Shown here one piece after another: positions 2,560 through 30,619 of a DNA stretch of 64,000 bases (position 1 is its first letter; each line of letters begins with the position of its first letter). A program made the position numbers and the translations under genes. The notes under the pieces are model-generated. The model saw only the letters and a program-made list of their open reading frames with translations, was not told the origin of the DNA and ran no database searches. Source of the stretch: Cupriavidus oxalaticus (lineage in GTDB: Bacteria > Pseudomonadota > Gammaproteobacteria > Burkholderiales > Burkholderiaceae); the NCBI RefSeq assembly GCF_004768545.1, contig NZ_CP038634.1:1-64000 (forward strand). The letters run 5' to 3'.

Positions 2560-3876
2560 CGGTTCGACCGGGCTCGAGGGCCCGGATGGTCTGAGGTTGT
2601 TGCCGCCGCACAACGCGCTGCGGCGGGGCTGGCCTCAGTCTTTGCCTACTTCGCTTTCCGGCGCAATTTGCCTGTTCGGTAGTCTGGGCCGAGCCGGGCG
2701 AAAGCATTTTTGTCCTATCAGGAAAAAATACTAAGCGAACGCTTCAATAGGCATCTCCCGCTTGGGTTACAAAATCAGCCAGCGAACGCATTTCCTGAGG
2801 ACGCGGCGATCCCACTGCCGATGCCCTGACTGGGCATGTCGAGGAGCGTTCAGTCCCTCGGTATTCGAGGAAATAGCCTAAGTTTTCTACCAACTTCCAC
2901 GAGACAACTTGCGGGGTTTGTGTCTGTGCGCGCTAGCACAGACGACTGCGATCGCCCCCGCACACGGGAGGGTTTCCCCGCGGTCGTCGCTGAGCGGTGC
3001 TCGGCCGCGATATGTGTGTCTTTAACGTCGCACGATTATGTTGATAAATGATTTTAATTATCCAACATTGAACTTAATTGATTTAATACATATTTTATTT
3101 TTTCATTATCAATGACGTATGTTTTTTGTTTATCAAGAGAATTGAATGGTCGTTCAATAAGGGGTGATGGCCTCAGATAAATCCTATGTTGCTTTGCAAC
3201 ATCAATCACTACCATGAAGCTGTAACCCAGCCCTGGTGCGGCTTCCAGCAGTGCTGTATGCACCACGTTTCTTTTTGAAGGTGAACTATGAGACATCTAT
3301 CCGTGATGGCGAAGTAACGTCATCACCCCTTTGGGGGGGGGTTGTGGAAATTTGTTACTAGATGTTGCGCGCGCTGCAAGCGCACATTAATATTGCGCCC
3401 TGCGTGGTTGGCAGGTGCCGTATGGGGCGCTGCTTAGCGATAGATCAAAATTCAATAATGAGAAACACGACGATCGGCAGGCGTTGCGAGCGGCGCCGTC
3501 GGCAGTTCGAGGTCGGTATTTGGCCCCTGCGGTAGGCCCCTTTGAGGTGGGTTCATCGTCGAGTCAAAAAGCGGCGAACGAGGTACTTAGTGGGTGGGTC
3601 CAGGTGCCTGGGTCGCGTGCGCTCGGCACCGCTCCGGCAATCTTCAATGAAAAGGGATTCGGAGTCGTAGATCGTGCCGCTGAACAAAAATCCGGGCCGC
3701 AGCAAGGGGCAAGCTGAAGTGGGGCGCCGCCACTGAAACTGGAAACGGAGGCGGGCCGGCCAGCATGATCGATTCGAGGCCGGGCGACATCATGCAGTGC
3801 ATCGTCGGCATCAAAAGCTGGTGCAGTCTTCAGCAGAGAACGTAGCAACGCATAAAAGGCAAGGGTGGGGTCCAGG
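2560..3876. other. 1.3-kb gene-poor leader upstream of the capsule locus
   Basis: No convincing gene is visible. The first part (2560-3000) has ordinary GC. From about 3030 to 3200 the sequence turns strongly AT-rich, with many TTTTA/TTAATT runs, then returns to moderate GC. A nine-G run lies at 3333-3341. Short frames exist at 2836-3051 and 3415-3717 on the plus strand, but they have poor codon character and no ribosome sites. The stretch probably holds the promoter and long 5' leader of the kps operon. It contains GCGGTAG (3529-3535), which only partly resembles an RfaH ops element. Confidence 0.6.
3054..3296 (-). CDS. Possible small hypothetical protein in AT-rich leader
   Basis: An 80-codon frame beginning MSHSSPSKRNVVH and ending LNQLSSMLDN. 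Its composition (Lys, Asn, Ile, Tyr) is protein-like rather than the Arg/Ala/Pro shadow pattern seen elsewhere, and it covers the AT-rich block. Against it, no clear Shine-Dalgarno precedes the ATG, no family is recognised, and it points away from the capsule genes. It could be a remnant of an acquired gene or chance coding in AT-rich DNA. Confidence 0.2.
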   Translation of the reverse strand: MSHSSPSKRNVVHTALLEAAPGLGYSFMVVIDVAKQHRIYLRPSPLIERPFNSLDKQKTYVIDNEKIKYVLNQLSSMLDN

Positions 3877-5304
3877 ATGTTGCTGTTCAAGACGCGAGCG
3901 GAAGTGGCGACAAGTTTCGATTCGCCGGACGTTGCGGTGCGCGCAGGGTCATCTGTCAATCTTGCTCGGCCGTTGCCCGACGAGGCAGGCTTTAGTCAGC
4001 TCACAAGGTATCGGCGCGTTCTGTTGCTGCAGGGCCCGAATGGGCCGTTCTTTGCGCGATTGAGAGACTACTTGCATGGTGCGGGGCTTGACGTATGCAA
4101 GGTCAATTTTAATGGCGGAGATGACCTGTTTTATCCCGAAGGTGACGTTGTTCGGTTCAATCGACCGATGGTTGAGTGGGAAGCGTTCCTGCGAAGCCTC
4201 CTTGCAACGCGCGGCATCGACGCCATCGTGGTGTTCGGCAATCACCGACGGCAACATCGCATTGCTGCGCGCCTCGCTCAGTCACTAGACATCGGGTTCT
4301 GGGTCTTTGAAGAGGGCTACGTTCGTCCAAACTACATTACCTTGGAGTCCGGGGGCGTCAACGCGGATTCGCCGCTGGCAACTCTGACAATGGCGGAAGT
4401 TCCAAAGCTGGAGCGTCCTGTTAGCGCTCGCAGGTTTCGGCATTCGTTTCGCCTGATGGCGTGGTACTCGTTCCTGTATTTCGCGGGTGGCATGCTCTGC
4501 GCCAGCACATATCCTTATTACCGGCACCACAAGCCGTTCGGGCTGCTCGAGCTTGTCAAATGGGTTAGGGCCGGGTACCGCAAGTACCTATACCGCTGGA
4601 GCGAGCGCGATCTCCGAAAGTGCTTGCTTGCCCGTGAGCACCCACACTTCTTCCTGGTTGCACTGCAGGTCTATAACGATAGCCAGATCAGGGTGCACAG
4701 CCCTTGGCGGCGTATCGAGGACTTCATAGAGTGGACAGTCCATTCATTTGCCGAGCATGCGCCTGCCGATAGTGTCCTGGTGGTCAAGCATCACCCAATG
4801 GATCGTGGCCATACGGACTATGCGGCTGCCATTGAAGCTTACGCGGCCAGGTTCGGGGTCAAGCAACGGGTTCTCTATATTCATGACGCACACTTGCCGT
4901 CGTTGCTGCACCGGTGTATGGGCCTGGTGACAATCAACTCGACGACGGGCTTGCAGGCCTTGTTTCACCGGGTACCCGTGATTGCACTTGGACGGTGCTT
5001 CTATGCCAAGCCGGGGTTGACTTACCAGGGATCGTTGGACGATTTCTGGAACGATCCAGGGGCGGTTGATACTAGTGGCTATACGCGTTTCAGGAGCTAT
5101 CTGACGCGTGTTTCACAAATCAACTCCTCCTTTTACGCAGACGAAATGTTGCTGCCTGTCCCTGTTCGTAGTGGCTGGCGTGCACATCGTCTTGTTCCTG
5201 CAAGATTCTTTTGTGCAGCTGGCCTTGTCATCGCTGACGCATACAGCAGTAGTCCGTGGGGCCTAGCGGCCGCAGCAGATCTGTTGGCGGGACTGCTCGG
5301 ATAG
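3877..5304 (+). CDS. kpsS: KpsS-like capsule linker Kdo transferase
   Basis: Capsule polysaccharide biosynthesis protein of the KpsS/LipB type. In known group 2 capsules, KpsS adds the first beta-Kdo to lyso-phosphatidylglycerol at the inner membrane, and KpsC then extends the linker. Diagnostic segments are RRVLLLQGPNGPFFARL near residue 45, FEEGYVRPNYITLE (family E-x-GYxRP block), VVKHHPMDRGHTDY (the KHHP motif) and INSTTGLQALFHRVPV. The ATG at 3877 is taken as the start. A GTG at 3865 in the same frame would add four residues. At 475 residues it is longer than enterobacterial KpsS because of an N-terminal extension of about 45 residues. A 215-bp gap separates it from kpsM. Confidence 0.9.
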   Translation: MLLFKTRAEVATSFDSPDVAVRAGSSVNLARPLPDEAGFSQLTRYRRVLLLQGPNGPFFARLRDYLHGAGLDVCKVNFNGGDDLFYPEGDVVRFNRPMVEWEAFLRSLLATRGIDAIVVFGNHRRQHRIAARLAQSLDIGFWVFEEGYVRPNYITLESGGVNADSPLATLTMAEVPKLERPVSARRFRHSFRLMAWYSFLYFAGGMLCASTYPYYRHHKPFGLLELVKWVRAGYRKYLYRWSERDLRKCLLAREHPHFFLVALQVYNDSQIRVHSPWRRIEDFIEWTVHSFAEHAPADSVLVVKHHPMDRGHTDYAAAIEAYAARFGVKQRVLYIHDAHLPSLLHRCMGLVTINSTTGLQALFHRVPVIALGRCFYAKPGLTYQGSLDDFWNDPGAVDTSGYTRFRSYLTRVSQINSSFYADEMLLPVPVRSGWRAHRLVPARFFCAAGLVIADAYSSSPWGLAAAADLLAGLLG

Positions 5305-5519
5305 GTCCGCTGATCACTGACAACAAGTGCAATAGCTCGCGTCGAACTCCTCTGGAAATTGTTAGGCTGAATGGTTGTGGTTGGTCATCAAATAGCACGA
5401 TCTGCGTGGTCAGAGCGCTTTGGCGTTCCTGGCAATGCTCGCTCTCTGCAGTCAGGCCAGTCGGCTACTGCAGTGCGCGCGTCAGACTGCAGACTGGCGA
5501 CACTACTGCGAGTCTCCCA

Positions 5520-8161: not shown

Positions 8162-9907
8162 ATGCGTTCCATCTTTGCCGCCATGGCCCTGGGCATGGCA
8201 ATTGTCGTTACAGCACATGCAGCCGATGTCGACCCACTGGGAATTAACCAGGCGCTGGGTCTGAGCAACGCCGCATCAGTCAATGCAAGGTCTGCCAAGT
8301 TGCCCGCAGAGGCACGGGCTGGCAGTCCGGACCAGGCGGTACCGGACATCCGTCCGCAATCGCCGCAGCTCTTTGACTACTCTGCAAATATTAGCAGCGA
8401 TGTCTTCGGCGCCAACCTGTTCACTGGCGCGTTTGCCCGGCAGGGGGCAACTCAGTTCAATCCTGACTACGTTGTTGCCGTAGGGGACAAGATCCAGGTC
8501 CGCCTGTGGGGCGCGTTCGATTTTGACGCCCCTTTGACTGTCGACCCCCAAGGCAACATCTTTGTGCCGCACGCAGGTCCTGTGCGTGTACTGGGAGTAC
8601 GTAATCAGGATTTGCAGCAGCTTGTGAACGCAGCCGTCACCAAGGTTTTCCGGTCCAACGTCTTCAGCTATGCCAGCCTCGCTGCGGCCCAGCCGGTAAG
8701 GGTATTCGTCAGCGGCTTTGTCAATCGCCCCGGGCTGTACAGCGGCACCAGCATGGACAGTTTGCTGCACTACCTGGACCAGGCGGGCGGCATCGACCCT
8801 GCTCGAGGTTCCTTCCTGACTGTTGAGGTGAAGCGAGGGACCAGAGTTCGTGCCACCGCCAACCTCTACGAGTTCCTGCTCAATGGCACGATGCCATTGA
8901 TCCAATTGGCCGACGGGGACGTGATCTTTGTCGCGCCCCGCCGCAACAGCGTCAAGGTTAGTGGCCTTGTCCAGAATGCCAAGCGCTTTGAGTTTGCCGA
9001 TCAGAAGCTTAGCGTGTCCGACCTCGCCAGGATTGCAAAACCCCAGGCATCCGCGACGCATGTGCGTGTGATACGCAATACGGGCATCACCAAGCATGTG
9101 GACTATTACGCGCTGACTGACGCTTCCGGTGCGATGCTAGGAAACGGCGACGAAGTCGAGTTCACGGCAGACAAGAAGCCAGGCACGATTACTGTACGCG
9201 TGGAGGGCGAGCATCTGAGCGCACAGGAATACGTGCTGCCATACGGGGCTCGCATCGGCGATCTACTCAAGCATGTCCAGTACTCTGAGCGATCGGACAA
9301 GGATAGTGTGCAACTCTTCCGCCTGAGCGTGAAGGAGCGGCAAAGTGAGATGCTGCGGGCCTCGCTGCGGACCCTGGAGAATGTCGCACTCACTGCCCGC
9401 TCAGGTACCAGCGACGAAGCCCGCCTGCGCAAGGAAGAGGCCGAGCTCATTCTGCAATGGGTTGAGCGTGCCAAAAAAATTGAGCCTAGCGGCCAGGTCG
9501 TTATTGCTCAAGCCTCTACGCGCGATGATCTGTTGCTGGAAAACGGAGACGTCCTGCGCGTCCCGACACTGGACGGACTCGTGCTGATCAATGGCGAGGT
9601 GCTGTTTCCCAACGCGATTGCGTTTGAGCGCAGCCTGACTCTGGACGACTACATCAACCGCGCGGGTGGCTATACGCAGAATGCCGACGCAGCCCGCGTC
9701 GTAGTGGCTCGCCGCGACGGCACCTTTGTTCAGGCTACAGGCGATAAGGGCTGGTTCTTCCTCAGCAATGGCGATGTGTCGGTTCGCCCAGGAGATGAAG
9801 TCCTGGTGCTTCCGAAGATCGACGTGAAATCGAGGCAAATCTGGAAGGACATGACTCAGATTCTTTACCAGATTGCGGTGAGCGCGAAGGTCGTGCTGGG
9901 CCTATGA
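8162..9907 (+). CDS. kpsD: Capsule export outer-membrane protein KpsD
   Basis: Polysaccharide export protein of the Wza/KpsD (OPX) class, forming the periplasm-to-surface conduit with KpsE. The Sec signal peptide (MRSIFAAMALGMAIVVTAHA) has no lipobox cysteine, as in other KpsD proteins. A Poly_export domain starts near residue 98 (YVVAVGDKIQVRLWGAFDFD), followed by SLBB repeats (VFVSGFVNRPGLYSGTSMDSLL and the later LVLINGEVLFPNAIAFERS). It has 581 residues, close to E. coli KpsD. It begins 25 bp after kpsE and its stop overlaps the start of the next glycosyltransferase (ATGA). Confidence 0.92.
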   Translation: MRSIFAAMALGMAIVVTAHAADVDPLGINQALGLSNAASVNARSAKLPAEARAGSPDQAVPDIRPQSPQLFDYSANISSDVFGANLFTGAFARQGATQFNPDYVVAVGDKIQVRLWGAFDFDAPLTVDPQGNIFVPHAGPVRVLGVRNQDLQQLVNAAVTKVFRSNVFSYASLAAAQPVRVFVSGFVNRPGLYSGTSMDSLLHYLDQAGGIDPARGSFLTVEVKRGTRVRATANLYEFLLNGTMPLIQLADGDVIFVAPRRNSVKVSGLVQNAKRFEFADQKLSVSDLARIAKPQASATHVRVIRNTGITKHVDYYALTDASGAMLGNGDEVEFTADKKPGTITVRVEGEHLSAQEYVLPYGARIGDLLKHVQYSERSDKDSVQLFRLSVKERQSEMLRASLRTLENVALTARSGTSDEARLRKEEAELILQWVERAKKIEPSGQVVIAQASTRDDLLLENGDVLRVPTLDGLVLINGEVLFPNAIAFERSLTLDDYINRAGGYTQNADAARVVVARRDGTFVQATGDKGWFFLSNGDVSVRPGDEVLVLPKIDVKSRQIWKDMTQILYQIAVSAKVVLGL

Positions 9908-12204
9908 TGATCCGGCAACTTCGCAAAGCTTTCTTCTCGCGGGCAAAACGCAGCCGGTGGTGGCAGCGTTTGCGCCGTGAGTTCGGGATACGGGATCTGC
10001 ATCCCGCAGCAGGGATCGATACGTTGCCTGTTTCAGGCGAGTATCGCTCCACTGGACAGGACCCTCAGTTTCGGCTCAAAGGGTTCCTGCCTGCTGGTTG
10101 GTACATGGTCGAAGTGAACATGACCCTGGCACTCGGCCAAGCAGATGCCCGGTTTTATCTGGACACCGGAGATGGCGAGAGCGAGGAGATGTCCTTCGCG
10201 CTGCCTGTGCGCTCCGGAAAACTGGCTAAACGAGTACTGTGCGTGCCTGCAGAGGCAAAGATGCGGTTTGATCCTCTGGCTTCAGTGGGATCTTTCACCA
10301 TCGGGCATTTTCGTGTGGTGCGCGTGCTGGAGGCCTTCGCGCGCCCACGTGTGCTGCGCAAGTTGCGCAACATACACCCTCGCTATCGGCAGTCCGACAC
10401 AGGAGAACGTTACCGCCTGTCGCACTATTGGAGCGACTACAACGCGCTGTTTGAAGGTAGCCAGCAGGACAGCGAGGGCTATGCACGGTGGATCGAAAAG
10501 GCGGAACGCACATTGCTTCCGGACGGGGCAAGCCATGAGCGAATTTCCGCATGCTGGAAGAGTCGACCCACGTTCTCCATTCTCCTGCCCACGTTCAACA
10601 CTCGCGAGTCCCAGTTGCGCGATTGCCTCGACAGCATCCTCGCGCAGACTTACCCGCACTGGGACCTGTGCGTAGCGGACGACGCCTCGACGGAGCCTCA
10701 CGTCGCGAAGATACTGGCCGAATATGCGCAGCGAGATGCCCGCATCCGGGTCATCGTGCGCGAACACAACGGCCACATTTGCGCCGCGAGCAACACGGCC
10801 TTGTCAATGGCTGGCCAGGATTTCGTTGTCCTATTGGACCATGACGACACACTGGCCGCAAACGCGCTGTTTGCAGTGGCACAGCACCTGCAATCACGAC
10901 CAACCGCTCAGATCCTTTATTCGGACGAGGACAAGATCGACGACGACGGGCACCGGTTTGCACCATTTTTCAAGCCGGACTGGTCGCCCGATCTCCTCTA
11001 TGCGCAAAACTACGTTTGTCATCTGGGCATCTACCGTCGGGAGCTGGTAACTGCTGTCGGCGGCTTCCGCCCAGGCTTCGAAGGTAGCCAGGACTATGAT
11101 CTCCTCCTGCGCTGCGTCGCCCGCGTCACCGATTCGCGAGACATCGTCCACATTCCCATGGTGCTGTATCACTGGCGGGCTAGCGAGGGCTCGACAGCGC
11201 TCGGTCATGATCGGAAGGACTATGCTGCCGAGGCTGCGCGCCGTGCGCTGCAGGAGCACATGGACAGACATCATCCGGGGGTGGTGATGGAAGTCACCCG
11301 TCCGGGCATTTATCGCCCCCGCTGGCCCGTTCCAGCGCCGCCGCCGCTCGTCAGCCTCATCGTGCCTACTCGGGATGGCTATGACATCCTCAGGACCTGC
11401 ATCGAGTCGATCCTTCAGAAGACCAGCTACCCCAACTACGAGATTCTGATCGTGGACAACCAGTCCACTTGCCCGCAGACCCTGGCCTACATGGCGGAAA
11501 TCTGTGCAGACGCGTCGCGCTCCGGGCGAGTGCGGCTGCTGCAGTTCGATTTTCCTTTCAACTACTCCGCCATCAACAACTTCGCCGCCAAAGAGGCGCG
11601 TGGCAGCATTCTTGGCCTCATCAACAACGACGTCGAGGTTATCAATGCCGACTGGCTTACGGAAATGGTCAGCCATGCCGTACGACCTGATATCGGTTGC
11701 GTTGGCGCTAAGCTTTACTACCCCGATAGAACGATCCAACACGCCGGTGTCGTCCTGGGCATCGGCGGCGTAGCGGGTCATTCGCACAAGTACCTGCCTG
11801 GTCATGCGGATGGATATTTTGGTCGATTGCTCGCGATCCACAACGTCAGTGCTGTCACCGGTGCAGCCTTGCTTGTACGGCGTGCCGTCTTTGACCTCGT
11901 AGGGGGGCTCGACCAGGAAACGCTGAAGGTAGCCTTCAACGACGTTGACTTCTGCATCAAGGTCCGGGACGCCGGCTTCCGCAATCTCTGGACCCCATTT
12001 GCCGAACTCTTCCATCATGAGTCCAAGTCGCGTGGTACCGATGAGACAGAGGACAAGAGGAAGCGCTTTGCCTTGGAGTGTGAAGTCATGCAAGAGCGTT
12101 GGGGCTCAGCACTGTCCCGCGACCCTTTCTACAACCCCAACCTGACTTTGGTCAGGGAGGACTATTCCCTCGCATCGCACCAGTCGCTGGTGGGCGGTGA
12201 TTGA
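9904..12204 (+). CDS. Two-domain GT2 glycosyltransferase
   Basis: A 766-residue protein with a non-catalytic N-terminal part (about 1-215) and two GT-A fold family 2 domains. The first starts at FSILLPTFNTRESQLRDCLDS (about 222) with VADDAS and LLDHDDTLA (DxD-type). The second starts at LVSLIVPTRDGYDILRTC (about 480) with EILIVDNQST and GLINNDVEVINADWL. This O-antigen/rhamnan-type architecture often adds two successive sugars, and rhamnose would suit the rml genes downstream, but donor and linkage are not readable. It is coupled to kpsD by an ATGA overlap. An alternative ATG three bases later (9907) is possible. Confidence 0.88.
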   Translation: MMIRQLRKAFFSRAKRSRWWQRLRREFGIRDLHPAAGIDTLPVSGEYRSTGQDPQFRLKGFLPAGWYMVEVNMTLALGQADARFYLDTGDGESEEMSFALPVRSGKLAKRVLCVPAEAKMRFDPLASVGSFTIGHFRVVRVLEAFARPRVLRKLRNIHPRYRQSDTGERYRLSHYWSDYNALFEGSQQDSEGYARWIEKAERTLLPDGASHERISACWKSRPTFSILLPTFNTRESQLRDCLDSILAQTYPHWDLCVADDASTEPHVAKILAEYAQRDARIRVIVREHNGHICAASNTALSMAGQDFVVLLDHDDTLAANALFAVAQHLQSRPTAQILYSDEDKIDDDGHRFAPFFKPDWSPDLLYAQNYVCHLGIYRRELVTAVGGFRPGFEGSQDYDLLLRCVARVTDSRDIVHIPMVLYHWRASEGSTALGHDRKDYAAEAARRALQEHMDRHHPGVVMEVTRPGIYRPRWPVPAPPPLVSLIVPTRDGYDILRTCIESILQKTSYPNYEILIVDNQSTCPQTLAYMAEICADASRSGRVRLLQFDFPFNYSAINNFAAKEARGSILGLINNDVEVINADWLTEMVSHAVRPDIGCVGAKLYYPDRTIQHAGVVLGIGGVAGHSHKYLPGHADGYFGRLLAIHNVSAVTGAALLVRRAVFDLVGGLDQETLKVAFNDVDFCIKVRDAGFRNLWTPFAELFHHESKSRGTDETEDKRKRFALECEVMQERWGSALSRDPFYNPNLTLVREDYSLASHQSLVGGD

Positions 12205-14082: not shown

Positions 14083-14098
14083 GTCGTACCGTATTCTC

Positions 14099-16045: not shown

Positions 16046-17185
16046 ATGCGTCCATTCCTGTTTGGCTTTCAACCATCAATTGACACGGCTCCTTTCCTTC
16101 CGACCGAGTCTGCCTACCACCAGGTGGGAGATAATACCGGCAATTTGGCATTTTGCTATGCAATAGACCGTCTTCTCGGAGAGGGCTTGGCATCCACCTT
16201 ATGGCATACGAATCCAGAAAGGTTAAAGACCTTTGGTGATGTTGGCGTTCTAACTCTAGCGAACCAGCTAGGACCACACGCCAATTTGGGCTATCTCAAC
16301 AATAGTTTCAGAAAAATCAAGGACGTTTCACTAGTGGGAATTGGCTTGGGCGCACAGGCAGCGCCCAACCAGGACCGAGTTGAGGTTCCGGAAGGGACGT
16401 TGGAGTGGGTGAGGGTGATCCAGGAACGATCTCCGACCTCGGCTCCCAATATCGCAGTTCGCGGCGACTTCAGCATGAGAGTCTTGGAACATTATGGCCT
16501 TGCTGAAAAAGCAGTGGCGACCGGTTGCCCGACATTGTTTATTAGCCCCGACAGGTCACTCGGGCAAACTATCTATCAGCGGTTTTCACCTAAGATGGGG
16601 CGCATAGCGGTCACGGCGGGGCATCAACGGTGGACTCACCTCGCCCAGCTAGAGGCATCACTAGTCGCTCTCAGCCAATGCGGTGGCGGAGCGTACATTT
16701 GCCAGAGTCCCCTTGAAATGGTGCAAATTGGACGAGGAGAGGTACACCTTCTGGACCCGCAATCAAGGGATCAATGCAGGGCATATACCGCGCCGTGGAT
16801 GTCCAATGAGGAGTTTATTAATTGGTCACAACGTTATGCTTGCAGCTTCTTTTCCGCAGCAGCTTGGCTCGAGTATTTGCGGCGATTTGATTTTGTAGTT
16901 GGCACTCGTATTCATGGTGTGATGCTTGCTCTTCAGGTGGGAATTCCTGCTTTGTGTATTGTCCACGACTCACGCACAACTGAACTTTGTGAAACGATGG
17001 CTGTGCCCTACGTCAAGGCACAAGACCATCGTCTAGGCATAACTCGCGATCAATTGCCATCACTGTTCAAGTTCGATCCAGATGCTTTTGATAAAAATAG
17101 AGTGAAAAGGGCAAGAATTTTCGCTGATTTTCTTCGATCGAATGAACTTGTCGCGGCGCCATATCTTTCCGGCCTTGCTGGCTAG
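16046..17185 (+). CDS. Polysaccharide pyruvyl transferase family protein
   Basis: A 379-residue member of the PS_pyruv_trans family, which transfers ketal-linked pyruvate from phosphoenolpyruvate to a sugar of an exopolysaccharide. Family features are an N-terminal NTGNLAFCYAIDRLL, the central motif FVVGTRIHGVMLALQVGIPALCI (R-x-HG), which is the family hallmark, and a downstream VPYVKAQD. It follows the acetyltransferase by one base, so the two are surely co-translated. Pyruvylation would give the capsule a negative charge. Acceptor and position are unknown. Confidence 0.85.
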   Translation: MRPFLFGFQPSIDTAPFLPTESAYHQVGDNTGNLAFCYAIDRLLGEGLASTLWHTNPERLKTFGDVGVLTLANQLGPHANLGYLNNSFRKIKDVSLVGIGLGAQAAPNQDRVEVPEGTLEWVRVIQERSPTSAPNIAVRGDFSMRVLEHYGLAEKAVATGCPTLFISPDRSLGQTIYQRFSPKMGRIAVTAGHQRWTHLAQLEASLVALSQCGGGAYICQSPLEMVQIGRGEVHLLDPQSRDQCRAYTAPWMSNEEFINWSQRYACSFFSAAAWLEYLRRFDFVVGTRIHGVMLALQVGIPALCIVHDSRTTELCETMAVPYVKAQDHRLGITRDQLPSLFKFDPDAFDKNRVKRARIFADFLRSNELVAAPYLSGLAG

Positions 17186-18537: not shown

Positions 18538-19920
18538 ATGACAACACAGGAATCTGGCCACTCGGTTGGGGAAAGATTGCGCACAGTTAAGGTCAGGCGC
18601 CTAGATTTCGCCCGGCATGGCATCCGACGCTGGGCGCTGGACGCCCCTGCGAACGAGCGCCTGGTGGATGCCGGGGCGGCAGCCATCCTGCTGCAGGGAT
18701 GGCTGCTCTGGGATGTGCCGCCCGATCAACCCGTGCACGTGGTGGTAGCCAGACTGGACGACGCCGAGGCTCGGTTACTTGCCTTCAATTGCAAACGCCC
18801 GGATGTCATCGAGCGTGTCCTGCTTGAGCAAGCTGTGGGGCACCCGCAATTGTGCTGTGGCTTCGCCTGGCGGATTCCGCTGCCTCTGGAAGGATTCCGG
18901 TTGGGCATACAGGTTGGACAGTCCTTGCCGGTGTGGCTGGCTGAGGTGGAGTTTGTCACGCCCATGCAAGTGATCGTCGGGCCGGAGAACTGGCTGTTTC
19001 TGGACAACGATACCAATCGCAGCGTAGATCAATACACCGGCAAGCGGCTGCTGGACGCGGATGAACTGCACCGCTGGAGCGCGTACCTAGCAGGATGTCG
19101 CACGCTAGCGACGCGCGTAGGCGCACGCCACGCTCTGGTCCTGGCGCCGTCCAAGGAAGAGGTACTGCCTCATCGCTACCCGTACAAGCGCGCGCACATT
19201 ACGGTGCTGGACCAGGTGTGCACGCTCGCCCAGCCTGAAGACCATGTCGTGAATGCAGCGCCGGTGCTGGCAGCGCACAAGCCGCCAGAGGCCTGCTTCA
19301 AGGTGACCGACACGCACTGGTCCGATCGCGGAGCGATGCTGGCTACGCTGGCAGCCTTGCCGCACCTGGGCGTGGACGTGGCGCAGGCCCGGGCCTTGTT
19401 CTCGCACGACGCGTACGAAGCGGTGAACGAAGTGGGGGACCTGGGTTGCAAGCTGCTCCCTGCGCGTAGCGCGCCGACTGAGTTTCTGAAGTGCCCTGTC
19501 CCGGAGGCTGGCGCTTCATTTGACAACCGGCTGCCGAACATTGGGCGAACGCTCGTTTTCGAGAACGAGGGGGCGGTGTATCAGCGGCGCCTGTTGTTGT
19601 TCGGAGCGTCGTCGAGCTACCCGATGCTGAAGTACCTGAAGCGCTTGTTCCAGCGTGTAGTGTTTGTTCACAGCGCCGCACAGGTTGACGTTCGGGTGGT
19701 GGAGCATGAGCAGCCGAACGCGCTGCTGCTGCAATCAAACGGCCGTTTTCTGGTTCAGGCACCTCACCTGCACTTTGTCTTGCAGCACGCCATGCAAACC
19801 AAGCTCGCCGAGGCGTCACCTGCGCTTCGGCAGCATGTGCGCGTACTGCTGGACGCGGCGCCGACAGAGGGACCGAATGTGCTGTACCACCAGATGCTGG
19901 CGAAAGCGACCAAGAATTAG
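18538..19920 (+). CDS. AlgX/AlgJ-like SGNH (DHHW-type) O-acetyltransferase
   Basis: A 460-residue protein resembling the catalytic domain of alginate O-acetyltransferases AlgJ/AlgX. There is a GPENWLFLDND block, DTHWSDRGA carrying the family Asp258-x-His260 pair, and GASSSYPML carrying the likely nucleophile Ser358. No signal peptide or TM is visible at the N-terminus (MTTQESGHSVGERLR), unlike periplasmic AlgX/AlgJ, so a cytoplasmic role is possible. The N-terminal 130 residues are unrecognised. It is followed after 5 bp by an SGNH lipoprotein gene. No MBOAT (AlgI-like) acetyl carrier is encoded in the window. Confidence 0.75.
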   Translation: MTTQESGHSVGERLRTVKVRRLDFARHGIRRWALDAPANERLVDAGAAAILLQGWLLWDVPPDQPVHVVVARLDDAEARLLAFNCKRPDVIERVLLEQAVGHPQLCCGFAWRIPLPLEGFRLGIQVGQSLPVWLAEVEFVTPMQVIVGPENWLFLDNDTNRSVDQYTGKRLLDADELHRWSAYLAGCRTLATRVGARHALVLAPSKEEVLPHRYPYKRAHITVLDQVCTLAQPEDHVVNAAPVLAAHKPPEACFKVTDTHWSDRGAMLATLAALPHLGVDVAQARALFSHDAYEAVNEVGDLGCKLLPARSAPTEFLKCPVPEAGASFDNRLPNIGRTLVFENEGAVYQRRLLLFGASSSYPMLKYLKRLFQRVVFVHSAAQVDVRVVEHEQPNALLLQSNGRFLVQAPHLHFVLQHAMQTKLAEASPALRQHVRVLLDAAPTEGPNVLYHQMLAKATKN

Positions 19921-19925
19921 CAACT

Positions 19926-20654
19926 ATGGGTATCAATCGATATGTGTGGATGATTGCCGCAATGGTCAGCGCGCTGGCGGGATGCGGCGGTGGGGAGGGT
20001 AACGAACCCGCGGCGCCGGTTGCGGCGCAGGTGCCCCTCGTCGCGCCAGGCAACTGGGTAGTCATGGGTTCTTCGTCCGCCCAAGGCACGGGGGCGAGCG
20101 CCGGCCATGCGTGGGCAGCGCTGCTGCTGGCCCGGGTGCAAGGCGCAGGCGTTTCCATGGAGAACCTGGCCAAGGGGGGCAGCGTCACCTACGAAGGGCT
20201 CAGTGCCAGCGCATCGCCCACGCCGAATCGCCCGCAGCCGGACCTGCAGCACAATGTGGACGCGGCACTCTCAGGCAAGCCCAGGCTGCTTCTGCTGTCA
20301 TACCCCACCAATGACTCGGCCATTGGCTACACGGTGGATGAGACGGTGCGCAACCTTCTGGCAATTCGCGCAACCGCTCAGGCGGCGGGGACAGCGGTGC
20401 TGCTGTTGTCTACACAGCCGCGCAACATGGCGCCAGACCTGCTGGCGCGGCTGCCGGCAGTTGATGCGCAACTGGCCAGCGCCGCCGGGGCGTGCTTCGT
20501 GCAAGTGCGCGAAGCACTGGCCGGAGCAGATGACAAGCTCGCGCCTGCCTACGATGCGGGTGATGGCGTGCACCCTAACGACGCCGGCCACGCCGTTATC
20601 CTCGCGCACATTCAGGCCACGCTGGACGCGGGCCAGTGCGTGCGGCTGAAATGA
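19926..20654 (+). CDS. SGNH/GDSL-hydrolase lipoprotein
   Basis: A 242-residue exported lipoprotein. The signal peptide ends at the lipobox ALAGC with Cys20, followed by GGGEGNE. SGNH blocks are VVMGSSSAQGTG (block I with a serine nucleophile), GGSVTYEG, SYPTNDS (block III Asn) and DGVHPNDAGH (block V Asp/His). It probably removes or adds acyl groups on the extracytoplasmic polymer or remodels it. Esterase versus transferase cannot be decided. Its stop overlaps the next glycosyltransferase start (ATGA), tying it to capsule synthesis. Confidence 0.82.
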   Translation: MGINRYVWMIAAMVSALAGCGGGEGNEPAAPVAAQVPLVAPGNWVVMGSSSAQGTGASAGHAWAALLLARVQGAGVSMENLAKGGSVTYEGLSASASPTPNRPQPDLQHNVDAALSGKPRLLLLSYPTNDSAIGYTVDETVRNLLAIRATAQAAGTAVLLLSTQPRNMAPDLLARLPAVDAQLASAAGACFVQVREALAGADDKLAPAYDAGDGVHPNDAGHAVILAHIQATLDAGQCVRLK

Positions 20655-21742
20655 TCAAGCGACGACAGCTGGCGGCGCCATTGCGTCTGGCATTCGTGGC
20701 ATGCAATAAGAACGCGGCCCGGTGGCGCGACGATGCGTCTTACCTCTATCGTTGCGAGAACATTGCCGAGGCGCTGAAGCAGCAGGGGCATACGGTGTGG
20801 CAGGGCCACGTGACGCGCCTGCCGTGGCTGCAACGGTGGGACGTAGTAGTGTTCCACCGCCCGCGCGCTACTTGGCATGTTCGCGCGGCACTGCACTGGC
20901 TGCGCCACCGGCGCGTGACAGTCGTTGCGGATGTTGACGACCTGATCTTCGACGCTGGCATGGCCGAGTTCAGTCCCGGCGTGGTCAACGGACTTGTCAC
21001 GCTGGAAAGAACGGTGCGATTGTTCCGTGCTCATCATGATGCGTTCGCCCGGTTTGACCGCATCGTGGTGTCGACCGCACCGCTGGCCGAGCACGTACGC
21101 CGGATGGTCCCACGTGCGGCGGTCCACATTGCACCTAACGCGGTGCATTGGCGCTGGCGGGATTTGCCTCGGCCGGCAGTCACAACCACGCAGGCGATTG
21201 CCTACTTGCCAGGAACGCGTAGCCACGACCGTGATTTTGCGACAATTGCGCCTGTGCTGACCAGGATCCTGGGACGCCATCCTCAGGCGACGCTGCACGT
21301 CACGGGGCCTCTGCGATTTTCGCTAGATGTGTTGCCCGGCCAGGTGGTGCACCAGCCCAAAGTGCCGTTCGACCGATTCCATGAGTGTTTTAAGGGGGTA
21401 CGGGTGAATCTGGCTCCGCTAAGCGATTCTCCCTTTAATCGGTGCAAGTCGGCGATCAAGGTGCTAGAAGCCGCATGGTGGGGGGTGCCCACTGTGGTGT
21501 CGCCCCTGGCTGACGCCGAGCGCCTGGCGGATGCGGGGGCTCATATTGCGCCCACAGAGGAAGCATTTGAAGAAACGCTTGAGCGCCTGCTAGCCGATGA
21601 CACATCCTACCTGCGTGCGGTCGACGGCTTGCGGGAGCGGATTTTGCATAGCGGAGATGTGTATCGAGTGGCCAGCGACTGGCTGCAATTCGTGATGCAT
21701 GGTCGCGACTCCAGGCTAGATGCGGGGAGCCGAGCGCCATGA
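20651..21742 (+). CDS. GT-B fold glycosyltransferase
   Basis: A 363-residue glycosyltransferase. The N-terminal region includes FVACNKNAARWRDDASYLYR, with VVADVDDLIFDAGMAEF, a block seen in capsule/O-antigen GT4-like enzymes. The C-terminal donor domain has IAYLPGTRSHDRDF and KSAIKVLEAAWWGVPTVVSPL. The start ATG at 20651 overlaps the previous stop, and the end overlaps kpsC by ATGA. The sugar donor is unknown. High GC is restored here compared with 15.4-18.3 kb. Confidence 0.82.
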   Translation: MIKRRQLAAPLRLAFVACNKNAARWRDDASYLYRCENIAEALKQQGHTVWQGHVTRLPWLQRWDVVVFHRPRATWHVRAALHWLRHRRVTVVADVDDLIFDAGMAEFSPGVVNGLVTLERTVRLFRAHHDAFARFDRIVVSTAPLAEHVRRMVPRAAVHIAPNAVHWRWRDLPRPAVTTTQAIAYLPGTRSHDRDFATIAPVLTRILGRHPQATLHVTGPLRFSLDVLPGQVVHQPKVPFDRFHECFKGVRVNLAPLSDSPFNRCKSAIKVLEAAWWGVPTVVSPLADAERLADAGAHIAPTEEAFEETLERLLADDTSYLRAVDGLRERILHSGDVYRVASDWLQFVMHGRDSRLDAGSRAP

Positions 21743-24700
21743 TCGTGCTTGGTTGGCTCAACCCTGTGGGTTGGGGTCTTCTGTGGTGGGCGCAGCGTCG
21801 CAGGGCGCAGGGGCGCTACGAGCGTGCTACGGAGCGCGCGTTTGCCATGGCCTGGCGCATGAACGGTACGCTGACGGCCTGGCTGGCCTACGCGATGTTC
21901 CGGCGGGACCTTGGGCGGCCGTTGCCCAGTCGCTGGCAACGGCAGTTGAACGACGCCTTGTCCAGGCTACCACGGCATAAGCGCCGTAAAGCGCTCGGCC
22001 TGTTGGCTGAGTCCGCCGGCGCCGACCGCCTGTCGGCGCCACGGAACGACTTGATGGATGCCGCGATACTGCCGGCGCTGGCCGATCGGGCGCGGCCTGG
22101 CGTCAGCGACGGCGATGCGGGCTGGCTGGCTGAACTGCACCGAAAGCAGCCCCAATGGCGTGCTGCGTTCGCGCGTTGGGTGAGTGATTGTTGCCAGTCC
22201 AACGGACTGTGCGTAGTTGGCAATGCCGGAGTCTTGAAAGGCCGCGGATTGGGGGCTCACATTGACCGTGCCAGTGGCGTGGTGCGATTCAACCGGTTTG
22301 CCCGCGGCGAGGACATGGCAGCCGACGTCGGCAGGCGTTTGGATGTGTGGGTAGTTGCGCCGGGATATCGCGGGCGCGCACCCGAGTTGGCGGACTGGAT
22401 TGTTGTGACGGGTCCCGATATGCGTTACCGCATGCAGGACTGGCAACTCGTGATGCCCTTCTTGAAAGCTGGTGTCCCGATCCTCACGATCCCGCTGGAC
22501 ATCTGGCGGGAGCTTGTGGAGCGCCTGAAGGCGCCGCCCAGCGCAGGCGTGTTGCTGCTGCACTGGCTGCAGCAATTGAAGGGGGACGGCAGCCGGGCAG
22601 GGCTAGTTTTTGCGGGTATTGGGCAGGGTGTGCCCGGTAAAGGGACGTATCACATGGCCATCCCTCAACACAAGCCCGTCGGGCGTCACAACTGGAAGGC
22701 TGAGCAACGGATGGTTGAACAATGGCAACGACTCGAGTTTGACGATTCCAGCGCGACGTCGCCTTCTGCAGCGGCGGCACCACGCTTCGCGGCATTCAGC
22801 GGGGCCCTGCACGAAATGCCATTGCTTGGCGAGCAACTCGGTGGGCATGTCGTACGAGCATGGCTATCAATGCCGCAAGGCGCTGACGTTGCAATCGGCT
22901 GGGGTTGCAAGAAATCGGGAGAACGGGCACGGAGTGCGGCGCAACGGGCCCGCAGACGCTACCTTTGCCTTGAAGACGGCTTCTTGCGTTCGTTTGGCAC
23001 GGGGGAGCACTTTCCCCCCTTGGCCATAGTCGTTGACGATGTTGGTATCTACTATGACAGCACTCGCCCAAGTGCCCTGGAGAACCTGCTAAACACGGAT
23101 AACGATCTGCTTGCGGGCATCGGTAACGATGTGGCGCGTGCCAAGGCCTTGATCGTCAAGCATCGGCTAAGCAAGTATAACCATGCACCGGACGGCTGGC
23201 TCTGCCCTCGGTCAGAGGCGCAGTCCGGGAAGCACAGCGTACGGAAAGTACTGGTGGTAGACCAGACGGCAGGGGATATGAGCGTGAAGCTTGGTGGGGC
23301 GCAGGCCGACACGTTTCTCGCGATGCTGTCAGCCGCCTGCGCAGAGAATCCTGACTCGATCATCTACGTCAAAACACATCCAGAGGTAGTATCCGGACGT
23401 AAGGGCGGCTATTTGACGCACGTCCAGGAAGGCACGACGCAAGGGCAGCGCATAGTATTGCTGCGCCAGCCAATCAATCCCATCCACCTGATTGAGCAGG
23501 TGGATCGTGTCTATGTTGTAACCTCAACCATGGGATTCGAAGCATTGCTGTTGGGCAAGCCGGTGACATGCTTCGGCCGCCCATGGTACGGCGGGTGGGG
23601 CGCTACCGATGACCGACAGGCTATTCCTCGCCGCACGCGCAATCGCAGTGTTGATGAGTTGTTTGCTGCGGCATACTTCCATTACACGCGCTACCTAGAT
23701 CCGGTCTCGCACCGGAAGGGAACCATCTTCGACGTCATTCGCTGGTTGGTGCGACAAAAGGAGATGGCTGCGAAGGCCATAGGCAGCAAGAGTTCCGGAC
23801 GTATTTTCTGCGTGGGTTTCCGGCGCTGGAGAGGTCCCAACGTGCGGCCTTTGCTATCGCTGGATCGAGAGCGGGTGAAATTCGTAAGAGATGCAGCTGC
23901 TGCACGTGATCTATCCCCTCAGTCTGGTGATGGCCTGGTTTTCTGGGGAAGTACTGCGCCCAAAGGCGTCTTGCAGTTGGCTCAGGAGCAAGGCGCTAAA
24001 ACGCTGCGCCTGGAGGACGGCTTCGTGAGGTCCGTCGGGCTTGGTTCGGACCTGATCCGGCCCCTTTCACTGGTACTGGACGAACGAGGCATCTACTTCG
24101 ATCCGAGTCGACCCTCGGATCTCGAGCACCTGCTCAGCACAGCGACGTTTTCTCATGAGGACCTCACCCGTGCGAGCGAGGTGCGTGCATTCATTGCGGA
24201 ACACGGCATCACAAAGTACAACTTGGAACCACGTGCAGAGGCAAGGTGGCCGACGGGGGGGAGGCTTGTGATACTGGTTCCCGGGCAAGTCGAGGACGAT
24301 GCTTCGATTCGCTTGGGCTGCACTGACGTGAAGAGTAATCTTGACCTGCTACGGTCAGTCCGGCAGGCGCATCCGAATGCCTTCATTGTCTATAAGCCGC
24401 ACCCGGATGTCACCAGCGGCAATCGTGCAGGCAAGATTGCGCTGGCACATGCTCGGGAGTATGCCGATCATGTTGAGATCTATTTGTCAGTAGTAAGTTG
24501 TATCCAGGCCTGCAATGAGGTCCATACCATGACGTCGCTTGCCGGATTCGATGCGCTGCTGCGCGAAAAGCGTGTAGTAACGTACGGCCAGCCTTTCTAT
24601 GCAGGCTGGGGTCTGACGACGGATCTTGCCAGTAATGGCATCGCTTTAGCACGCCGGACCCGGGGCTTGACACTGGACGAACTCGTGGCAGGCAGTTTGC

Positions 24701-24885
24701 TGCGCTATCCGCTTTACTGGGATTGGGAACTGAAGGGCTACACAGACTGCGAGGCTGTTCTACGGCGGATAGTGGAAACGCGGAACAAGCTGGAACTGAA
24801 CGGCGATCTGGAAAAGCTCAGAGTAGGATCAGTACGACGAATGTGCAGGAAACTGAACGTGCTGGCCAGGAATTCGTTGCTTTGA
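21739..24885 (+). CDS. kpsC: KpsC capsule Kdo transferase fused to an N-terminal GT29 (sialyltransferase)-like domain
   Basis: A 1048-residue, three-module protein. Residues about 350-685 and 686-1030 are the two KpsC modules, each with an EDGF(L/V)RS block, a DD/DERGIYxDxxRPS block and a K(T/P)HP(E/D)V motif. In characterised capsules these add alternating beta-2,4 and beta-2,7 Kdo to the lipid linker. Residues about 150-330 form an extra domain with sialyltransferase-type motifs: L motif (CVVGNAGVLKGRGLG, 158-172, ending VVRFN at 181-185), S motif (PPSAGVLLLHWLQQL from 266, then VFAGIG) and the VS motif His317-x4-Glu322 (HNWKAE). Ordinary KpsC has about 670 residues and lacks this domain. 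The gene is coupled to the upstream glycosyltransferase by ATGA. Confidence 0.9.
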   Translation: MIVLGWLNPVGWGLLWWAQRRRAQGRYERATERAFAMAWRMNGTLTAWLAYAMFRRDLGRPLPSRWQRQLNDALSRLPRHKRRKALGLLAESAGADRLSAPRNDLMDAAILPALADRARPGVSDGDAGWLAELHRKQPQWRAAFARWVSDCCQSNGLCVVGNAGVLKGRGLGAHIDRASGVVRFNRFARGEDMAADVGRRLDVWVVAPGYRGRAPELADWIVVTGPDMRYRMQDWQLVMPFLKAGVPILTIPLDIWRELVERLKAPPSAGVLLLHWLQQLKGDGSRAGLVFAGIGQGVPGKGTYHMAIPQHKPVGRHNWKAEQRMVEQWQRLEFDDSSATSPSAAAAPRFAAFSGALHEMPLLGEQLGGHVVRAWLSMPQGADVAIGWGCKKSGERARSAAQRARRRYLCLEDGFLRSFGTGEHFPPLAIVVDDVGIYYDSTRPSALENLLNTDNDLLAGIGNDVARAKALIVKHRLSKYNHAPDGWLCPRSEAQSGKHSVRKVLVVDQTAGDMSVKLGGAQADTFLAMLSAACAENPDSIIYVKTHPEVVSGRKGGYLTHVQEGTTQGQRIVLLRQPINPIHLIEQVDRVYVVTSTMGFEALLLGKPVTCFGRPWYGGWGATDDRQAIPRRTRNRSVDELFAAAYFHYTRYLDPVSHRKGTIFDVIRWLVRQKEMAAKAIGSKSSGRIFCVGFRRWRGPNVRPLLSLDRERVKFVRDAAAARDLSPQSGDGLVFWGSTAPKGVLQLAQEQGAKTLRLEDGFVRSVGLGSDLIRPLSLVLDERGIYFDPSRPSDLEHLLSTATFSHEDLTRASEVRAFIAEHGITKYNLEPRAEARWPTGGRLVILVPGQVEDDASIRLGCTDVKSNLDLLRSVRQAHPNAFIVYKPHPDVTSGNRAGKIALAHAREYADHVEIYLSVVSCIQACNEVHTMTSLAGFDALLREKRVVTYGQPFYAGWGLTTDLASNGIALARRTRGLTLDELVAGSLLRYPLYWDWELKGYTDCEAVLRRIVETRNKLELNGDLEKLRVGSVRRMCRKLNVLARNSLL

Positions 24886-25036: not shown

Positions 25037-26101
25037 TTGCCATACATTATTGTCACAGGCGGTGCCGGGTTCATTGGTGCCAACTTTGTCCTGAACTGGT
25101 TGAGTGATGCGGCAGCAGACACGGTTATCAACGTCGACAAGCTGACCTATGCGGGCAACCGCAAGACGCTGGCCTCGCTGGAAGGCGACTCACGCCATAT
25201 CTTTTCGCAAACCGACATTTGCGATCGCGCCGCCTTAGACAAACTGTTTGCCACCTACAGGCCCCGCGCAGTTGTTCACTTTGCTGCCGAAAGCCACGTC
25301 GATCGTTCGATCCACGGTCCAGATGCATTCATCCAGACCAACATCGTCGGCACCTTTACGCTGCTGGAAGCCGCACGCGCACATTGGGGCACTCTCAACG
25401 AGGGAGACAAGGCAAGCTTTCGCTTCCTCCATGTTTCTACGGACGAGGTCTTCGGATCGTTGGGTCCCCATGATCCACAGTTCTCGGAAACCACCGCCTA
25501 CCAGCCCAATAGCCCTTATTCAGCATCCAAGGCCGCCTCAGATCATCTGGTTCGGGCGTATCACCACACCTATGGCCTGCCGGTCCTGACTACCAACTGC
25601 TCAAACAACTACGGGCCTTTTCACTTTCCTGAAAAGCTCATCCCGCTGGTTATCTCCAACGCTCTCGCGGGTAAGCCACTTCCAATATACGGCGATGGGC
25701 TGAACGTGCGGGACTGGCTTTACGTAGCTGATCATTGCGGCGCCATTCGCGAAGTCCTTGCACGCGGATGCGTAGGTGAGACCTATAACGTAGGCGGGTG
25801 GAACGAAAAGACAAATCTCGACGTCGTTCACACCTTGTGCGACTTGCTCGACGAACTACATCCGAAGACAGATGGGTCCTATCGTGACCAGATCGTCTTT
25901 GTCAAAGATCGACCAGGCCACGATCGTCGCTATGCGATCGATGCCCGTAAGCTTGAGCGGGAACTGGGCTGGAGGCCGGCCGAGACTTTCGAAACGGGTC
26001 TGCGCAAGACTGTGCAATGGTATCTGGATAACCAGGCCTGGGTTAAAGATGTGATGTCCGGCGAGTACCGCAATTGGGTAGCGAAGCAATATGCAGCGTG
26101 A
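25037..26101 (+). CDS. rmlB: dTDP-glucose 4,6-dehydratase RmlB
   Basis: Second step of dTDP-L-rhamnose synthesis: dTDP-glucose to dTDP-4-keto-6-deoxyglucose, using bound NAD. Extended SDR with the Rossmann motif [14 protein letters not shown] at the N-terminus, [22 protein letters not shown] and the catalytic YSASKAASD (Tyr-x3-Lys). The start is a TTG at 25037 with AGGAG about 9 bases upstream, giving the normal 354 residues. No ATG fits as well. It begins 150 bp after kpsC, and an AT-rich stretch (24985-25015) just upstream could be a promoter. It overlaps rmlD by 11 bp. Confidence 0.95.
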
Positions 26102-27002
26102 ACCGGCAACGCCCACCTTTCTCATTACTGGGAGTAACGGCCAGGTTGGCTTCGAATTGCGCCGCAGCCTTGCTCCGCTAGGTCGCGTGGTGGCGCTGGA
26201 TCGCACCGGCTGCGACCTCTCTCGTCCGGACGAGATTCGGCGTGTAATGCGCCAGTACTGCCCGGATGTTATCGTCAATCCGGCCGCCTACACGGCAGTC
26301 GACAAGGCAGAAACTGAAGCCGAGGTAGCTTTCGCCATCAATGGTAAGGCGGTGGGGATCCTTGCCGAAGAGGCCAATGCGCGCGGTAGCCTGCTGATTC
26401 ATTACTCTACGGACTATGTCTTCGACGGTTGCAAGGATGGTGCCTACGTCGAGACCGATCCAGTCAACCCGCAGTCGGTCTACGGCAAGAGCAAATTGGC
26501 TGGTGAACAAGCCATTGCTGCTGTCGGCGGCCAAGCGCTGGTTCTTCGTACCTGCTGGGTGGCCGGCGCTCACGGCGGAAATTTTGCAAAGACTATGCTG
26601 CGGGCGGGGCAGGAGCGCGATAGCTTGCGAGTGATCTCCAATCAGTTTGGAGTTCCCACGACGGCCGCACTGATCGCTGACGTTACCGCGCAGATTGTGG
26701 CGCGCCACTGGGTGTCTGGTAAGCGTCATAGCTTTGTTTCTGGAATCTATCACCTTGCTGCCGGTGGCGAGACCACTTGGCACGGTTATGCCACAGAGGT
26801 GCTGCGCTATGCAGCGGCTCATGGCATAGCGCTAAAGGTAGACCCTGCCCGTATTGAAGCAATCCCGGCGAGCGCATACCCGTTGCCGGCACCACGTCCG
26901 CTCAATTCACGCCTGGACACAGGCAAACTGCGTCAGACGTTTGGCATCCATTTACCACATTGGCAGGAAGGTGTGCATTTCTTGCTTGACCAGATTCTCT
27001 AA
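26091..27002 (+). CDS. rmlD: dTDP-4-dehydrorhamnose reductase RmlD
   Basis: Last step of dTDP-L-rhamnose synthesis, reducing the 4-keto group with NAD(P)H. SDR features are [37 protein letters not shown] and YGKSKLAGE (catalytic Tyr/Lys), with the C-terminal [12 protein letters not shown] typical of RmlD. It has 303 residues, the usual length. The start lies inside the last codons of rmlB, so translation is coupled. The order B-D-A-C matches many betaproteobacterial rml operons. Confidence 0.95.
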
Positions 27003-27020
27003 ATTGATGAGCAGAACCTA

Positions 27021-27899
27021 ATGCGCAAGGGAATTATTCTCGCCGGTGGATCCGGCACCCGGCTCTATCCGATCACGCGATCGGTTTCCAAGCAGCTGCT
27101 GCCAGTATATGACAAGCCGATGATTTACTATCCGCTGTCCACGCTGATGCTGGCAGGGATTCGTGACATCCTCATTATCTCTACGCCGGAAGACACCCCG
27201 CGTTTTTCGGACATGCTGGGTGACGGCAGCCAGTGGGGCCTGAACCTGCAATACGCTGTGCAACCGAGCCCGGATGGGCTGGCGCAGGCTTTTCTGATTG
27301 GCCGGGAATTTATCGGCAATAGCCCATCTACCTTGATTCTCGGAGACAATATTTTTCACGGTCACGATCTCGTGCGCCAGCTTGAGCGTTCTGCGAAGCA
27401 GAAGGAAGGTGCGACTGTCTTTGCCTATCACGTGCAAGATCCGGAGCGATATGGGGTGGTGGAGTTCGACGCGGACTTTCGTGCACTGTCGCTGGAAGAA
27501 AAGCCCCAAAAGCCGCGTTCCAACTACGCAGTTACCGGACTCTATTTTTACGACAATCAGGTCTGCGATATCGCTGCGGACATCAAGCCGTCCGCGCGTG
27601 GTGAGCTGGAGATTACTGACGTCAACAAGCGCTATCTTGAGATGGCAATGCTTGACGTGGAGATTATGGGCCGGGGCTATGCGTGGCTAGATACCGGCAC
27701 ACATGAGTCGCTCCATGAGGCAGCGGGATTCATCGCGACATTGCAGAACCGTCAGGGTCTTATGGTGGCGTGTCCGGAAGAAATTGCCTTCCGTAGCAAT
27801 TGGATCGGTGCCGATAAAGTAGTGGAACTGGCCACGCCTCTTGCCAAGAGTGGTTACGGAAAGTACCTGCTGCAAGTCATTTCCGAATCGGTCAAATGA
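27021..27899 (+). CDS. rmlA: Glucose-1-phosphate thymidylyltransferase RmlA
   Basis: First step of dTDP-L-rhamnose synthesis: glucose-1-phosphate plus dTTP to dTDP-glucose. The nucleotidyltransferase signature [20 protein letters not shown] stands at the N-terminus, followed by [25 protein letters not shown] and [20 protein letters not shown]. It has 292 residues, as expected. It begins 18 bp after rmlD, and its stop overlaps the rmlC start (ATGA). Confidence 0.96.
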
Positions 27900-28447
27900 G
27901 TATGAAAGTCATCCTTACGTCCATTCCGGACGTCCTGATCATCGAGCCCAAAGTATTCGGTGATGATCGCGGCTTCTTTTCTGAGAGCTTTAATGCCAGG
28001 CAATTTGAAGAGGCAACGGGTGTAAAGCGGACGTTCGTGCAGGACAATCATTCTCGGTCTGCCCGCAATGTGCTCCGGGGCCTGCACTACCAGATCCAGC
28101 ATCCACAGGGAAAACTTGTCCGTGTTGTGGTCGGTGAGGTGTTTGACGTAGCTGTGGACTTGCGCCAGACTTCGCCGACGTACGGAGAGTGGGTAGGCGT
28201 CACCCTGTCGGCGGAAAACAAACGCCAATTGTGGGTGCCGGAAGGTTTCGCTCACGGCTTTGTAGTGACTTCAGAGTCCGCGGAATTTCTCTACAAGACG
28301 ACCGACTACTGGTATCCCCAGCACGAGCGGAGCTTGCTCTGGAACGACTCAGACGTCGGCATTGATTGGCCGATTGAGGGGCAACCGATCCTTGCGGCCA
28401 AGGATGCCGCGGGGAAGCGGCTAACTGAGGCCGAATCGTTCTGCTAG
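27896..28447 (+). CDS. rmlC: dTDP-4-dehydrorhamnose 3,5-epimerase RmlC
   Basis: Cupin epimerase converting dTDP-4-keto-6-deoxyglucose to dTDP-4-keto-L-rhamnose. It has 183 residues with [34 protein letters not shown] (catalytic His region), [28 protein letters not shown] and YKTTDYW. Two ATG codons (27896 and 27902) are possible. The first creates the ATGA overlap with rmlA. It is the last gene of the rml operon. Confidence 0.95.
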
Positions 28448-28876: not shown

Positions 28877-29082
28877 AAAACAGCAACAATCGAACGCTAC
28901 CATTGACGTGCTGGATTGTTCTGCAGGCTAACCGGCTGCTATAAGGGCGAACAGTCGTTATACTACTTCAGCGCTTGGTTCCCGCAGTTCCCGTCTTGCG
29001 CCCCGGAAAGCAGGGCCCTCGTACACCTCCGCTGCACCTCAGCCCCCAACGTCCCCATTCGTCACCATCGCCCCCGCTCGCC

Positions 29083-30602: not shown

Positions 30603-30619
30603 TTTTGCCCCCCATTGCA

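Follow-up and report, generated by a model that had tools for sequence, protein, structure and literature searches.

A KpsC variant with an N-terminal GT29 domain, a candidate alpha-Kdo transferase, in a capsule locus of Cupriavidus oxalaticus

How the serotype-specific polymer of a capsule is joined to its conserved anchor of beta-linked 3-deoxy-D-manno-octulosonic acid (Kdo) was unknown until one pathway was solved (PMC11666461). The question returns at a kps locus within a 64,000-nucleotide stretch of the Cupriavidus oxalaticus genome (NZ_CP038634.1, positions 1 to 64,000; hereafter the window), where a gene at 21739..24885 of the forward strand encodes the linker enzyme KpsC with a domain of the GT29 (sialyltransferase) family at its N-terminus: what might a sialyltransferase-type domain do on such an enzyme? 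The protein appears to be a new variant of KpsC, and its additional site is probably an alpha-Kdo transferase acting at the linker end, a reading that we regard as evenly poised on the sequence evidence. The domain and the anchor enzyme are physically linked, and Kdo is the only evident ulosonate of this genome that is activated by cytidine monophosphate (CMP); both the polymer-anchor junction and the identity of inverting Kdo transferases become directly testable through it.

One gene with three glycosyltransferase modules

The gene is a single open reading frame (ORF) running uninterrupted from ATG to stop and encoding 1,048 residues, with coordinates, strand and length as in an original prediction made from the sequence alone. 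Pfam profiles recover two stretches of Capsule_synth (PF05159, 321.5 bits) and a GT29 match (PF00777; 33.2 bits against a gathering cut-off of 23, E 4.8e-8) that is limited to residues 158-208, the region of motif L. The extra N-terminus preceding the KpsC part spans about 347 residues, close to the 340 or so first estimated, but the GT29 core fills only residues ~125-337 (22111..22749); residues 1-124 (21739..22110) form a TPR-like helical region, with helices at 9-93, which the stand-alone relatives also possess. The KpsC-N module (residues 374-700, 22858..23838) contains E412-D413, K479-Y480, Q509-xxx-D513 and H547-P, and the KpsC-C module (residues 701-1020, 23839..24798) E759-D760, K826-Y827, Q850-xxx-D854 and H888-P. 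Both modules keep the motifs QXXXD, HP, Glu-Asp and Lys-Tyr, whose roles have been described (PMC10148158). The KpsC part further matches the solved KpsC-N and KpsC-C chains 6mgb, 6mgc and 6mgd, with E-values down to 4.6e-80. KpsC (GT107) of E. coli and T. dismutans likewise has the QXXXD, HP and Glu-Asp motifs in both modules, but as described there it has no GT29 domain (PMC10148158).

A PF05159 search of the genome recovered three matches, namely KpsS and the two modules of the fusion protein. The latter is therefore the only KpsC found in this genome and must also carry out normal linker synthesis. That two genes were joined by an assembly artefact was rejected, because the same fusion recurs in a second genome of the genus (G145, whose fusion protein has the sequence of P0002) and in a record from a compost metagenome (P0003).

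Motifs and likely donor of the GT29 domain

Structure prediction and fold comparison recovered a GT29 fold for residues ~125-337, bearing out the GT29-like domain originally proposed. The motifs that define the family (PMC6884586) are all present, including the acid and base histidines: motif L at residues 158-185 (22210..22293), motif S at 266-293 (PPSAG..., 22534..22617) and motif VS as H317-x4-E322 (22687..22704) lie where they were first placed, and motif III (Y304-H305, 22648..22653) is an addition. Relative to hST3Gal1, N147 corresponds to N162, N170 to N185, the catalytic acid H299 to H305, the catalytic base H316 to H317 and E321 to E322. In an alignment of the window protein with 99 of the 118 protein matches of 193-413 residues (short or weak ones excluded; alignment A2, 100 rows), every row has N162, R183, N185, P267, G270, R316, H317 and W319, while H305 and E322 are kept in 99 rows each. 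The His and Asn motif residues stressed in the original prediction are thus retained across homologues, and conservation over 100 aligned family members argues that the motifs are not a chance resemblance. Among 20 GT29 sequences taken from fusions and from kps loci (one of them the window's), all have N162, N185, H317 and E322, and 19 have H305, which is shifted or changed in P0006. No GT29 model matched in an NCBIfam scan of seven family members.

In the comparison of the window protein with its counterpart in G145, the ratio of nonsynonymous to synonymous substitution rates is 0.132 for the GT29 core, 0.130 for KpsC-N and 0.124 for KpsC-C, as against 0.224 for the linker and 0.241 for the helical N-terminus. 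The GT29 core is thus under constraint similar to that on the KpsC modules: the domain is maintained and not decaying. These values, together with acid and base histidines kept in 99 and 100 of the 100 rows, speak against a non-catalytic scaffold docking KpsC to a glycosyltransferase of family GT4 or to the polymerase. We consider such a role quite improbable, even though the TPR-like N-terminus would suit it and the TPR domain of the capsule polymerase CpsD is needed for linker elongation (PMC11666461).

The fold and motifs L, S, III and VS are shared with the eukaryotic sialyltransferases ST3Gal1, ST6Gal1 and ST8SiaIII, and would by themselves be compatible with a true sialyltransferase or nonulosonate transferase. 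Unlike these enzymes the window domain is fused to KpsC, and it has C158 of motif L with no Cys in residues 266-293, i.e. lacks the cysteine pair joining motifs L and S that is important in eukaryotic GT29 sialyltransferases (PMC6884586). The position of hST3Gal1 S148 is mostly Ala (68 of the 100 rows), and that of T269, which contacts N-acetylneuraminic acid (Neu5Ac) in hST3Gal1 (PMC6884586), is Ala in 99; these differences would fit a sugar other than Neu5Ac. Searches for the sialic acid synthase NeuB, positive in 9 of 14 control genomes, found none in the window's genome (100% complete), where the one CTP_transf_3 gene is kdsB (NCBIfam, 258.5 bits against a cut-off of 155.2); G145 similarly lacks NeuB and has a single CTP_transf_3 gene. 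Over all 14 GT29-carrying genomes checked, NeuB is absent from 12, and from 10 of the 12 with a completeness of 90% or more; its presence in the other two (G315 and G1163) is a point in favour of sialyl transfer. With NeuB and a second CMP-sugar synthetase of the family both absent, neither synthesis nor scavenging would supply CMP-sialic acid in this organism, and sialyl or nonulosonate transfer is nearly refuted for this genome. CMP-Kdo is left as its only evident CMP-ulosonate. The original idea of an additional CMP-activated nonulosonate or ulosonate is accordingly strengthened and narrowed to Kdo by the presence of kdsB, and its nonulosonate part has become unlikely for want of NeuB.

An inverting GT29 enzyme acting on CMP-beta-Kdo is stated for plants to yield alpha-Kdo (PMC11288761). 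The plant protein RCKT1/MGP2 has GT29 motifs like those of the window, and evidence for a CMP-Kdo donor and an alpha-Kdo product comes from mutant cell walls rather than from in vitro work; its acceptor is pectin, unlike that envisaged here (PMC11288761). The same article lists GALT29A, a galactosyltransferase by name, as a plant GT29 member. A switch of the window domain to another nucleotide sugar, e.g. uridine diphosphate galactose, could draw on this precedent and is improbable in our estimate.

Recurrence and genomic context of the fusion

The GT29 domain was found in 2 of 200 genomes of the window's family (the window included), in 4 of 369 genomes of a class-level sample (one weakly) and in 4 of 399 of an order-level sample (two weakly); the family of G751 yielded 2 of 187 and that of G273 9 of 63. 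Three genomes (G880, G941 and G478) gave weak, distant GT29 matches only, and a plasmid search gave two distant ones. The distant GT29 protein of G941 (L048:8582-10696) lies among genes for an ATP-binding cassette (ABC) transporter and glycosyltransferases, read as a non-kps surface-polysaccharide context, which implies that bacterial GT29 domains may not be confined to capsule loci.

Protein searches, which scored only candidates sharing most words with the query and hence give lower bounds, recovered at least five further three-module fusions (P0002-P0006, of which P0005 and P0006 align with GT29 though they have no precomputed Pfam GT29 label) and at least 118 matches of 193-413 residues. 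Two GT29-KpsC-N proteins (P0126 and P0127) are among the matches listed, and P0007 is a GT4-GT29 protein that its 2.8 kb contig may cut. With three more from G1153, G1154 and G1157, the other GT29-KpsC fusions that the original prediction left to be sought do exist. In G1141 the GT29-KpsC-N gene (L062:8774-10879; P0126) and a lone KpsC-C gene (L073:4664-5791; a frame of 376 residues, 345 of which align with the window's C module at 41% identity) lie on separate contigs; the former contig ends 244 bases after the gene, and the case for a split KpsC therefore rests on the separate KpsC-C gene. In T. dismutans the two KpsC modules occur naturally as separate proteins (PMC10148158). The GT29 partner in G1141 is thus the N module, which is the beta-(2-4) transferase in E. 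coli. A P450-looking ORF, recognized by eye, lies near this KpsC-C gene in L073.

On a 71-row tree (51 stand-alone sequences, i.e. every second of those with at least 300 residues; P0124 and P0125 left out) the fused state needs at least five changes of label, two of them forced by strong branches; gain of the fusion and its splitting are not separable on this tree. A single clade for all 11 KpsC fusions was rejected (approximately unbiased test, p 5.7e-5, on a quick tree with long branches), and a clade of the window's group with L064-L066 was not (p 0.21, same tree). In L047, L059 and L067 the GT29 and kpsC frames are in phase with one stop codon between them, which suggests how fusions may arise.

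Fifteen GT29 loci were examined (the window, L043, L044, L045, L047, L020 and L059-L067). GT29 is fused to KpsC in six (in L062 to KpsC-N alone) and in seven it is encoded by the gene immediately preceding kpsC on that strand, such that in 13 of the 15 it is fused or adjacent to KpsC, the linker builder, or to the N module of KpsC. Directly upstream of the window's fusion gene and overlapping its ATG is a GT4-like glycosyltransferase gene (20636..21742, forward strand), of the type fused to GT29 in P0007. Its homologues occur in 11 of the 15 loci; among 21 loci fetched by KpsC similarity (several short), GT29 or this GT4 was found only in L020. A protein with two GT2 domains (9904..12204 in the window, forward strand) occurs in 9 of the 15, against none of 16 control KpsC loci at a threshold of 60 bits (the score in L008 is 55); the controls are the 21 loci without the short or fragmentary L001, L006 and L019, the near-duplicate L012 of L011, and L020, which was moved to the GT29 set. 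RmlA or RmlC is encoded in five of the 15 (the window, L020 and L064-L066).

These co-occurrences bear on the main rival explanation, that the domain transfers alpha-Kdo into the repeat unit, in which case the polymer itself would contain Kdo and the fusion would merely pool the users of CMP-Kdo. A dual GT29-GT107 ORF of E. coli K6 has been linked with mass-spectrometry signals of a Kdo homopolymer, and an inverting enzyme is said to be required for the alpha-Kdo found in K16 and K74 (PMC13171606); the association of GT29 with the GT4, the two-GT2 protein and rmlA/rmlC points the same way. Pairing with KpsC or its N module in 13 loci favours the linker instead, as does the GT4-GT29-KpsC order kept in L047 and L067, neither of which has the two-GT2 protein within the fetched 20 kb; however, a homologue of the second GT4 of the window (14006-15355) is common to both. 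We judge a repeat-unit role possible though unlikely.

The K6 protein is also the nearest counterpart by description, no GT29-KpsC fusion being described among the matches listed from the open literature, a scope outside which most subscription journals lie. Like the window protein it combines GT29 with a KpsC-type module and is predicted to transfer Kdo from a CMP donor. It has two modules and was described in explaining the polymer (PMC13171606), whereas the window protein has GT29 with both KpsC modules and is the sole KpsC found in its genome; P0126/L062 and P0127 share the two-module layout of K6. In two DNA searches of E. coli genomes for the K6 ORF, no site reached 80% coverage of the query; the best 20 of 46 and 60 of 1,179 rows matched 4-5% of it, within annotated capsule genes.

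Several further features of these loci were noted. In eight loci from the family of G273 a type I polyketide synthase is encoded directly downstream of kpsC, as a giant ORF recognized by domain scan in L065 (12216-19754) and by BLAST similarity in L044, L059-L061, L063, L064 and L066; L009, L011 and L013, which are KpsC loci, contain weaker relatives. A link to a lipid anchor or a surface lipid is conceivable. A beta-helix (NosD-like) gene separates the GT4 and GT29 genes in L044 (11630-12973, by Pfam) and L061 (10212-11555, by BLAST).

A possible role at the linker end and the neighbouring genes

We propose that the fusion protein is the working KpsC of its locus with a third, GT29-type active site. 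On the phospholipid primed by KpsS, KpsC-C and KpsC-N would assemble the usual oligosaccharide of beta-Kdo by retaining double displacement, and the GT29 domain would use the same donor, CMP-beta-Kdo, in a single displacement with H317 as base and H305 as acid, adding an alpha-linked Kdo. Its likeliest acceptor would be the end of the growing beta-Kdo chain passed on by KpsC-N; the alpha-Kdo might then mark the linker end, to which the neighbouring GT4 would add the first hexose. That the three-site enzyme both builds and ends the whole lipid-proximal linker, with an alpha-Kdo cap whose change of anomer halts KpsC and admits the following transferase, is a more tentative proposal. If true, the enzyme would have its transition transferase built in, and a bacterial GT29 would for the first time have a defined function. 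The transition transferases CpsA and CpsC have the same proposed place between poly-Kdo and polymer, but are glycerol-phosphate enzymes of families other than GT29 (PMC11666461). For the bacterial GT29 group, for which no tested function was found in the literature examined, a likely donor is thereby proposed; the available part of one survey describes stand-alone sequences in proteobacteria with no kps context or tested function (PMC5811610).

Several observations weigh against alpha-Kdo transfer at the linker end. Foldseek TM-scores of the domain are modest (0.3-0.5), and no demonstration of Kdo transfer by a bacterial GT29 was found in the literature examined. GALT29A implies that membership of GT29 is no guarantee of a CMP-sugar donor; in addition to the NeuB of G315 and G1163, there are four CTP_transf_3 genes in G315 and two in G273, the second of these weak. 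Only some of the kps loci have the GT29 gene, which is hence not needed for the ordinary linker. In L020 it lies elsewhere in the kps cluster, on the opposite strand and apart from kpsC, and the L045 locus of G315 is a 3.8 kb contig without kpsC, so that GT29 is not beside kpsC there. Finally, the two-GT2 protein and rmlA/rmlC travelling with GT29 fit a shared repeat-unit chemistry equally.

The remaining kps genes of the window, all on the forward strand, comprise kpsS for the first beta-Kdo (3865..5304; KpsS model 392 bits, below the equivalog cut-off of 600) and the export genes kpsM (5256-6311), kpsT (6239-6973), a kpsE-like gene assigned from its position, with no Pfam match (6892-8136), and a kpsD-like gene (8162-9907). 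Downstream of the fusion lie dTDP-rhamnose genes (25037..28447, forward strand), of which rmlC was identified by Pfam and rmlB, rmlD and rmlA were named by reading the sequences. These are followed by a three-gene run (28945-31981) ending in a cytochrome P450 gene (30599-31978), relatives of which adjoin kpsS in two Comamonas loci, L008 and L014 (P450 472 and 466 bits). Within the capsule locus, polysaccharide pyruvyltransferase-like (16046-17185) and AlgX-like (18538-19920) genes suggest that the polymer is pyruvylated or acetylated.

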